From Ruminiclostridium cellulolyticum H10 (GTDB lineage: Bacteria > Bacillota > Clostridia > Acetivibrionales > DSM-1351), in assembly GCF_000022065.1 (NCBI RefSeq), contig NC_011898.1:3847501-3911500 (forward strand): 64,000 nt of DNA. Reading direction: 5' to 3'. Under the pieces are notes generated by a model. That model saw only the letters and a program-made list of their open reading frames with translations. It was not told the origin of the DNA and did no database searches. Below, in pieces: positions 22,710 to 25,778 of this stretch. The position numbers were made by a program, and so were the translations under genes. The stretch's first letter is position 1. The number at the start of each line of letters is the position of its first letter.

Positions 22710-24146
22710 ATGTACAATCCCAGTAGCAAACAATTTGTCTTTAAAGATTCCGAGGGGAAGCTGTGGAATTTTTACTATGATACCAGTCAGGGAATATGTT
22801 ATAGTGTATTTTCCAAAAGGATGGCATGGTCGGAGCCACGGGTAGTCCAACCAGAGGCCTACGAGCAATTCTATGCTGAAATAGATGAAAAGGATTGCTT
22901 CCATATTATATATCAGGATAAGAAAGGTAATATTATTTATTGTCTAATGCAGCAAAATGAGACAGTTAAGGCATTGCCTGTACTGACCAGTAAATCACAC
23001 TCTGTGTTTAATAAACATTTGTCGTTGATCGTCGCTAACAGCTGTGTACATATTTTCTTTATAATCGAGCATAACGGAATATACATGCTTTCATATCAGA
23101 CGATAACAGATGGTGTTCCTGTTGCACCAAAAAAAGTGGATAATATAACCGTACTTCCAAATCCTTACATGGTAGTTTATGACTTACATGATGACATTTA
23201 CGTTTTTTATCATATTTCTGACGGTAAAAATAATCAAATCGGTTATAAAAAGTACTCAACCGTAAATAAAACCTGGAGTGAGTATTCACAAATTACCATG
23301 TTCTCATCTAATAGCCAGAACCCTAGGTTAGTCGTTGACAGAAACGGTATCTTTCATATTTGTTATGTAAGAAAACAGGATAAACAGTTTCAGCTAGTAT
23401 ATCAGCAAAAGATACCGGACAGGAATATGTGGACATCGGAAAGCATACTGGCCGCTTCCAGTACCCCTATTACCAATTTTTGCATACTGTCCGTCAAGAG
23501 CAGTCTGGTGGTTTATTACATAAAAGATGAGGCTCTGCACTCATTTATTTCAAATGACTCCGGAGCTAGCTTCACAAAGTCCTCGAAAGGTGTGTCTCTT
23601 TCAAGGCAACATATTTGCGTCAGATATAAATCCAACAGTCCTTATGAGCATATTCAGGCTGATGAAATACCTGCATCCTTTGTTAATGGCTTTAAGCTTA
23701 TGTTTATTCATGATTCTGTAGACTTGGAAAGTGGTCTGAATACTGATGAAATGAGAGCTATTATAACTACGGAACTTAAATTTCTAAAAAGACAGGTAGC
23801 GGATTTAAAAGATGCCCAGAAAATTATCTTTAACAATATAAAATCACTTGAGACTAATCAACAAAATATGGAACGTTCCCTTTTGAAAGAAATATCCAAA
23901 ATAGTGATAGGCCTGAAGCCGGGAAAACCTAGTCCTGAACTGGTACAGGCAAATAAAAGCACTTACATATCAGAACCGTCGAATAATGTAAAGCATAATA
24001 ACAATCTTTATACTCATTCCTTTACCAATTTCCCAAAATCCAGAGAGGAAATGAAACGTTTATTTGCAGACAGGGTTAAGAAAAAGGCACGTTTACTAAA
24101 AGATTTTAAGGGTGTATGGAAAATAAAAAGAAAGAAAAATAAGTAA
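22710..24146 (+). CDS. Predicted beta-propeller protein with coiled coil and basic tail
   Basis: This 478-residue protein has no recognised family. Residues 1-310 hold repeated blades with Asp-box-like turns (FVFKDSEGKLWNFYYD, YQDKKGNIIYCL, VVDRNGIFHICYV, FISNDSGASF), suggesting a sialidase-like or BNR propeller. Residues 345-400 are a coiled coil (LKFLKRQVADLKDAQKIIFNNIKSLETNQQNMER). The last 40 residues are strongly basic. No signal peptide or membrane segment is seen. It is divergent from 21691-22569 across a 140-bp gap and shares the 3' hairpin with the convergent RNA gene. Confidence 0.75.
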   Translation: MYNPSSKQFVFKDSEGKLWNFYYDTSQGICYSVFSKRMAWSEPRVVQPEAYEQFYAEIDEKDCFHIIYQDKKGNIIYCLMQQNETVKALPVLTSKSHSVFNKHLSLIVANSCVHIFFIIEHNGIYMLSYQTITDGVPVAPKKVDNITVLPNPYMVVYDLHDDIYVFYHISDGKNNQIGYKKYSTVNKTWSEYSQITMFSSNSQNPRLVVDRNGIFHICYVRKQDKQFQLVYQQKIPDRNMWTSESILAASSTPITNFCILSVKSSLVVYYIKDEALHSFISNDSGASFTKSSKGVSLSRQHICVRYKSNSPYEHIQADEIPASFVNGFKLMFIHDSVDLESGLNTDEMRAIITTELKFLKRQVADLKDAQKIIFNNIKSLETNQQNMERSLLKEISKIVIGLKPGKPSPELVQANKSTYISEPSNNVKHNNNLYTHSFTNFPKSREEMKRLFADRVKKKARLLKDFKGVWKIKRKKNK

Positions 24147-24167
24147 AAGGGGCATTATAAATGCCCC
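24141..24167 (-). terminator. Terminator of the intergenic RNA gene
   Basis: GGGGCAT/ATGCCCC forms the stem. On the minus strand it is followed by TTTT and then ACTTATTTTTC, so it terminates the RNA transcribed from 24445. It begins inside the stop codon of the convergent propeller gene. Confidence 0.8.
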
Positions 24168-24445
24168 TCATCACTTTTAAGTTACTCCCAAAATGGCGTC
24201 CCCAGTATTTTGACACCTAGCCCAACGCTAGGTGGGTGTCCCGGTGGTATCTTCAGCCTTCCTTCGCCGTTGCACAACGTTCACGCCGTATGTCGGAATT
24301 ACCTAAGGCCTGGCATCGTATACCAGACAGCAGACTCCCTTATGAAAGATGTAGGTTCAAAATAAAAGGGTTCATTCGCTCATTTCAGGATAACTGTTAT
24401 TCATTTTTGAAAGTTCACCAGCCCTAATACCTGACTGCTTTCGAT
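24150..24445 (-). ncRNA. Candidate structured non-coding RNA, about 295 nt
   Basis: No plausible protein is encoded here on the minus strand, yet a consensus promoter (24452-24480) and a terminator (24141-24167) bracket the segment. Internal hairpins include CACCTAGC/GCTAGGTG (8 bp, loop GTTGG) and CTGGTAT/ATGCCAG (7 bp, loop ACG). Further stems are GTTG/CAAC and GCCTT/AAGGC. A 5'-3' pairing of CAGGTATT with AATACTG is also possible. The signature motifs of tmRNA, RNase P RNA and SRP RNA are absent. 6S RNA or the clostridial raiA RNA class remain possible; I cannot assign it. Confidence 0.6.
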
Positions 24446-24451
24446 GGATTT

Positions 24452-24480
24452 ATTATACCATCGGTTTTTATCCATGTAAA
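24452..24480 (-). promoter_or_regulatory. Consensus promoter of the intergenic RNA
   Basis: On the minus strand TTTACA (24475-24480) is separated by exactly 17 bp from a perfect TATAAT (24452-24457). It points into the non-coding segment and away from the DUF3343 gene that ends at 24537. Confidence 0.8.
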
Positions 24481-24536
24481 ATAGAGTTTAAATAATATAT
24501 CCTTTAATAGCGACTGTTTTCTCCCGTATAATTTGT

Positions 24537-24794
24537 CTAGTATAATCTTTCATACTTATTCTTTGAAAATCCAGAAATAACTCTGTATATTTCCTTTACG
24601 GGAGTGTTGATACGAGCGGCTTCAGCTTTTATTACATCCAGAAACTCTTCTGGGAATTTCAGGCAAAGCCCACATCCTCCTTTAGCAATACTGCAAGGAG
24701 TAGAAATAACTTCAAAGTCATATCCTTTTTTTATAAGCTCAGAGTTCAGCTTGTAAACATAATTCCCAGATTCTAATATTGCGATGCATTTCAT
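24537..24794 (-). CDS. DUF3343 family protein
   Basis: This 85-residue protein has the DUF3343 pattern: CIAILESGNYVYKLNSELIKKGYDFEVISTPCSIAKGGCGLCLKF. The C-x5-GGCG-x-C cluster is the conserved core; the family has been proposed as a selenium or sulfur carrier, not proven here. The frame opens at 24827, but GGAGTGGG fits the ATG at 24794, which also gives the family N-terminus. It follows the ogg-type glycosylase gene by about 100 bases. Confidence 0.85.
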   Translation of the reverse strand: MKCIAILESGNYVYKLNSELIKKGYDFEVISTPCSIAKGGCGLCLKFPEEFLDVIKAEAARINTPVKEIYRVISGFSKNKYERLY

Positions 24795-24890
24795 AAAACC
24801 CACTCCAATTCCATAATATCCCTGCACCCATACTAAGTTACTTTACATTACATAATATTGAAATGGCTTATAAAAAGTTCCGCAAATGTT

Positions 24891-25778
24891 TTATCTCGAC
24901 ATACCTATTTTATTTAACCTTGCATGGTAAAATAAATATTGCTGTGCGTACCCTGTCAGGCCCCCAAACTGTTTTGTAGCGAACTCCTGTATTTCCTTGT
25001 GACTGGATTCCTTTTTGAGATACAGTTCCTCCATCACACGTTTTACCCAAACATCAATCGGAAAAACATCATATTTCAATCCACTGAAAAGCAGTATACA
25101 GTCGGCAACCTTGGGTCCTACGCCGGGAAGAATCATAAGCTCCTTACGTGCCATGGCTGTGTCCATGCTTCGAAGAATTTCTTCGGTTACAATACCCTGT
25201 GCCATTAAAGCAGATGTTTTGTGAATATATTTGCATCTGAATCCGGCCTTGCACTGCTTTATATCCTCCAAAGATGTCTCTGCAAGGGCCTTAATTTCAG
25301 GAAAACTATATGCATTACGCCCGGAATCTATACATTTACCTCTTAAAACAGATAGAGCGTCTACAGTTTTCATTATTCTCGGTATCATGTTGTTAGCAGA
25401 TATTATAAATGAAATGAGCATTTCCCAGAAATCCTGTTTAAGAAGCCGTATTCCCCAGCCTGTTTTTATTGCCTCTCTCATTATTTCGTCCTGCTCCAGA
25501 ACAGACTTGATTTTTGAATAATCAGTACCAAGATCAAAATATTCGTACCATATATCTATAAAATCCTGCTCGCTTGAATTTGTTATACAAAAAACCTCAT
25601 TGTCATAACTTACATTTACCATCCGGCCTCTCGCTATCCCTCTATAGCTTCCGTCCTCCTGCCTGATCCAACGGAAACACTGTCCGCAATCGAATATGTG
25701 CGTTAAATTAAAGTCCTTTATATTTTCTACGTAAAGATTTCCATCCTCATTTTTCAGGGTATAGCCTTTATATTCCAT
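24891..25778 (-). CDS. ogg: 8-oxoguanine DNA glycosylase (OGG1-type)
   Basis: This 295-residue HhH-GPD enzyme removes oxidised guanine from DNA and cleaves the abasic strand. The N-terminal OGG_N domain has FNLTHIFDCGQCFRW. The catalytic domain has LISFIISANNMIPRI, the helix-hairpin-helix LMILPGVGPKVADCILLFS and the catalytic Asp in FPIDVWVKRVM. The lysine preceding the HhH-GPD (KYIHKTS region) is a candidate nucleophile. GGGGAGG precedes the ATG. Confidence 0.93.
   Translation of the reverse strand: MEYKGYTLKNEDGNLYVENIKDFNLTHIFDCGQCFRWIRQEDGSYRGIARGRMVNVSYDNEVFCITNSSEQDFIDIWYEYFDLGTDYSKIKSVLEQDEIMREAIKTGWGIRLLKQDFWEMLISFIISANNMIPRIMKTVDALSVLRGKCIDSGRNAYSFPEIKALAETSLEDIKQCKAGFRCKYIHKTSALMAQGIVTEEILRSMDTAMARKELMILPGVGPKVADCILLFSGLKYDVFPIDVWVKRVMEELYLKKESSHKEIQEFATKQFGGLTGYAQQYLFYHARLNKIGMSR

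Follow-up and report, generated by a model that had tools for sequence, protein, structure and literature searches.

The window analysed here, a stretch of 64,000 nucleotides from the genome of Ruminiclostridium cellulolyticum H10, carries on its minus strand, within the segment 24141-24480, an RNA gene at about 24445-24141 whose body matches the 6S (SsrS) family of Rfam (Table 1). On its downstream side it meets a convergent plus-strand gene (22710-24146, 478 aa), the product of which matched no Pfam family at E 0.001. Just upstream of its promoter is a small minus-strand open reading frame (24537-24827) with a match to the Pfam family Se_S_carrier (PF11823), and further upstream lies a gene for an 8-oxoguanine DNA glycosylase (24891-25778). 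Between 24146 and 24537 the minus strand contains no open reading frame of at least 40 aa, on which ground a protein-coding role of this strand was rejected, in agreement with an earlier note on this DNA that had seen no credible minus-strand protein here; two plus-strand frames, of 51 aa and 63 aa, cross the gap.

Table 1. Features of the 6S RNA gene in the window, and related elements in other genomes
Feature	Position	Strand	Basis or remark
Promoter: -35 TTTACA, 17-nt spacer, -10 TATAAT, preceding TG	24452..24480	-	Pattern scan; 11/12 consensus letters
5' leader, about 50 nt, from presumed start to 6S body	24395..24445	-	Alignment of 11 genus rows
6S/SsrS RNA body	24181..24394	-	RF00013, full model, 1-187 of 187
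Presumed product-RNA (pRNA) template, RNA positions 31-44	24351..24364	-	Position and conservation; start site presumed
Extra apical hairpin	24267..24296	-	Rfam alignment; helices 8 and 9 (columns 106-139)
Hairpin on 3' side of central bubble (ACCUAGC...GCUAGGU)	24215..24233	-	Helix 10, 100.0% of cells paired
Intrinsic terminator stem, 10 pairs, 3-nt loop, then T-rich tail	24147..24169	-	Pattern scan
Repeat-like element	L058:1395-1497	-	G001
Repeat-like element directly after 6S	G010:C342:1595-1695 (L059)		G010
Short 6S copies	L015; G040:C58:26578-26766; G043:C44:50897-51085		Match listing

Promoter, leader and terminator

The earlier note had described a TTTACA-N17-TATAAT promoter pointing into the segment and a terminator closing it, and both were recovered where the table places them. 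With the start of transcription taken, by assumption, as 7 nt 3' of the -10 element, the transcript would extend from about 24445 to about 24141 and be approximately 300 nt long. Neither the promoter nor the terminator signal is strong by itself. Sites with at least 11 of the 12 promoter consensus letters and spacers of 16-18 occur 16 times on the two strands of the window, with the TG in 3 of the 16, and a scan of 1.7 kb gave 6 promoter-like sites, with an average of 5.8 in shuffles, and 2 terminator-like sites, which are the two strands of the stem at 24169-24147, with an average of 1.2. Conservation is the better evidence: in 10 of the 11 aligned rows of the genus, the window's own included, a TATAAT with a -35 element 17 nt upstream of it stands 62-81 nt 5' of the 6S body, the -35 element reading TTTACA in eight of these rows and TTTACT in two, and the terminator stem is kept in nine of the 11, two of which carry two-sided changes in it. 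In the 11th row (G010) the TATAAT is displaced to 128 nt 5' of the 6S body, with the -35 element falling beyond the extracted stretch.

The leader is poorly conserved beyond the closest relatives among the same 11 rows, and one row has an insertion in it. This row is again G010 (L059), and the location of the insertion, 3' of the -10 region and ahead of the 6S body, suggests that the leader tolerates additions. At the other end of the gene, the terminator stem scores on both the plus and the minus strand and ends beside the convergent gene, so that it may be shared by the two genes and serve both. The place directly 3' of the 6S body, where the other genus rows have their terminator, is taken in G001 and G010 by a repeat-like element approximately 100 bp long; among five genomes searched, whole or partial matches to this element number 27 in G010, 19 in G003, 7 in G001 and 4 in G008, and the genome of the window has a single one.

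Assignment to the 6S family and conservation of the fold

The earlier note had left the nature of the RNA between 6S, raiA and an undescribed class, and had proposed an Rfam search, which came out in favour of the first of the three. The scan of the window at gathering thresholds picked out two loci, a tRNA at 15009-14939(-) and 6S/SsrS at 24394-24181(-), the latter along the whole RF00013 model with 65.2 bits as compared with a gathering score of 46.4 (E 1.3e-10); it is the one 6S match in the entire genome of 4,068,724 bases (one contig). A permissive scan of the 551 bases from 24050 to 24600, in which matches up to E 1 were accepted, returned 6S with an E of 1.1e-12 and, on the opposite strand, a Giardia U4 match (E 0.68) that was judged to be due to chance. 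Many 6S RNAs of the class score higher than 65.2 bits, up to a maximum of 110.4 bits, and the extra apical hairpin may be the reason for the lower score of this RNA. The locus is almost certainly a 6S (SsrS) RNA gene, the sole one found in the genome.

The 306-nt stretch 24445-24140 has a predicted folding energy of -101.5 kcal/mol (z -3.66), a value that none of 100 shuffles equalled. One local hairpin of this single-sequence minimum-energy fold, UGGUAU-ACG-AUGCCA, was rejected, as the alignment with relatives has the first of its strands paired to the opposite side of the apical arm. The alignment consists of 48 rows, the window's own included, namely 46 of the 62 matches from a search of 60 genomes (own included) and two genus rows taken from a DNA similarity search. 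The 16 matches left out are those of G018, G023, G029, G044, G048, G056 and G058, two each of G025 and G043, three of the four of G032, and the second ones of G026 and G040; two of these 16, L015 and L050 (184 and 183 nt), were dropped as short, a choice that biases the pair counts towards the longer form.

The 48 aligned 6S bodies keep the 6S rod, the central bubble and the hairpin on the 3' side of the bubble. Their consensus has 56 pairs, with 97.0% of the cells paired versus 89.1% in shuffles, and the covarying pairs that the earlier note had suggested looking for in an alignment with relatives are present, two-sided changes occurring at 21 of the 56 pairs versus 14.8 in the shuffles. The covariation score is 0.303 versus 0.146, and no shuffle out of 500 reached the observed value in even one of five measures, in a type of comparison in which relatedness alone can beat the shuffles. 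When the pairing partners were slid by 1-3 columns, pairing fell to 33.4-48.9%, a control that favours the structure, as the pairs counted were derived from the same alignment. The two-sided changes are found mostly in the apical arm, with few in the closing stem, and many pairs of the closing stem and bubble are invariant; the 3'-bubble hairpin is nearly so, with no two-sided changes in the 48 rows. In the alignment of the 11 genus rows, the gaps within the 6S body are all short. The rod of closing stem, central bubble and apical arm that is typical of 6S is supported by covariation.

Three other readings of the locus have to be weighed against this. It is highly improbable that the RNA belongs to an undescribed class merely resembling 6S, in favour of which one might cite the leader (about 50 nt) and the greater length of the apical hairpin in comparison with the Rfam consensus; all 187 model positions align, the extra parts are additions to the model, and few stretches of the alignment are as conserved as the presumed pRNA template and the 3' side of the bubble. 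The earlier note had itself said that a strong Rfam match would remove the novelty, and because of the full-length RF00013 match above the gathering score the undescribed class was rejected. A degenerate 6S relic, or an intergenic stretch that is not transcribed, has an exceedingly small probability: an 11/12 promoter match alone is not rare in the window and transcription here is a prediction, but the single copy in the genome and the compensatory changes argue against this reading, as do a promoter in register in 10 and a terminator stem in nine of the 11 genus rows. The chance that the locus encodes the raiA-motif RNA of Clostridia, proposed in the earlier note and compatible with the similar size and the clostridial-looking host, is practically nil, since the permissive scan of the same 551 bases gave no match to raiA (RF03072) up to E 1 and a strong one to 6S on the same bases (a search of the genome gave 0 raiA matches as well, but was also silent in its control genomes, so that absence from the genome as a whole is not implied).

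The 6S RNA recognized at this locus is an already-known, ordinary bacterial RNA, and neither the leader nor the apical hairpin removes it from the 6S family; both are compatible with a primary transcript and with a clade-specific form of an RNA already described.

Distribution among relatives and the extra apical hairpin

With the stricter filters, an Rfam 6S match at E of at most 0.001 was obtained in 54 of the 60 genomes, own included, and was over the cut-off in 53. Two of the six misses were losses to the filters, as laxer settings gave 57 bits in G002 and 56.5 bits in G006, both over the cut-off, which brings the genomes with 6S RNA by Rfam to 56 of 60. G011, G041, G050 and G059 had no 6S match even with the laxer filters; the completeness of G041 is 93% and that of the other three 73-87%. 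In a draw from the whole class, 165 of 196 genomes had a 6S match with the strict filters, own included.

Within the genus, the DNA similarity search found the RNA in all 11 genomes, i.e., the window's own and ten others. The upstream glycosylase gene was recovered from every one of them, in each case on the contig and strand that carry the RNA, its match lying 404-916 bases away from where the RNA match ends. In G010 the glycosylase gene is split across two contigs. A glycosylase protein search of the genome contigs gave only 2 distant loci.

In the apical loop, 8 positions of the Rfam consensus correspond to 40 letters in the window's RNA. A covarying apical hairpin of about 30 nt is present throughout the 48-row alignment, with 99.3% of the cells paired in helix 8 and 91.5% in helix 9, the inner helix, all 5 pairs of which are changed on both sides. 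From the 60-genome search, 58 of the 62 matches span at least 200 nt, as compared with the 187 positions of the model. Six of the 60 genomes have 2-4 6S matches each, three of them with one short copy (184-189 nt) in the set; judging from their length, the short copies are perhaps devoid of the extra apical hairpin. It could be supposed that this order-wide, covarying hairpin is a functional add-on to 6S, e.g., one that contacts an extra protein or tunes the affinity for the sigma-A polymerase, a proposal that we consider doubtful.

Comparison with known 6S RNAs and the presumed pRNA

Along with the full-length model match, the RF00013 consensus and the window's RNA have in common a closing stem, a central bubble and an apical arm, to which the latter adds the apical hairpin of about 30 nt and the leader of about 50 nt that precedes the body. 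Bacillus subtilis has two 6S RNAs, whereas the window's genome has one Rfam 6S match. The 6S-1 RNA of B. subtilis is presented in the available text of PMC8876501 and PMC12005410 as an open-promoter mimic that binds the holoenzyme with the housekeeping sigma factor and is released upon the copying of a pRNA from its bubble, and the first of these sources describes a hairpin in the 3' side of its central bubble, as is the case in the window's RNA. The 6S RNA of Clostridioides difficile (RCd3) likewise has its own sigma-A-type promoter and a predicted 6S fold, according to the accessible part of PMC3649979, where the bands reported measure about 200 nt and 175 nt, in comparison with the primary transcript of about 300 nt predicted here. 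For Clostridium acetobutylicum, PMC3879012 reports, in the portion available, three 6S bands that its authors ascribe to processing; the expression and fold of the C. difficile and C. acetobutylicum RNAs are described in these two sources. Among the literature titles listed, none is devoted to the 6S RNA of C. cellulolyticum or C. thermocellum, and none reports such a transcript as abundant and stable in the former.

In the presumed pRNA template, TTTGAACCTAC is identical in all 48 aligned rows. The 14-mer predicted from it, 5'-GUAGGUUCAAAAUA, with its start placed presumptively, agrees without gaps in 9 of 14 letters with the pRNA of B. subtilis 6S-1 as given in the available text of PMC12005410, and this is the best agreement among the 201 14-mer positions in the window's RNA.

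By analogy with the family, polymerase carrying the housekeeping sigma factor would transcribe a precursor of about 300 nt, the leader and tail of which would probably be trimmed. The resulting 6S rod would imitate an open promoter and thereby occupy the sigma-A holoenzyme at low growth or when nucleotides are scarce. On regrowth, the 5' side of the bubble would serve the polymerase as template for a short pRNA, with the products predicted to begin 5'-GUAGGUUC, and the 6S RNA would refold and the polymerase be freed. For the window's 6S RNA, we infer from these parallels the start nucleotide as well as the binding and the release of polymerase.

The assignment to 6S settles the identity of the intergenic segment, which encodes a housekeeping regulator of RNA polymerase, and the clade-specific apical hairpin together with the variable leader could serve in studies of the extent to which a 6S RNA can accommodate extra sequence.
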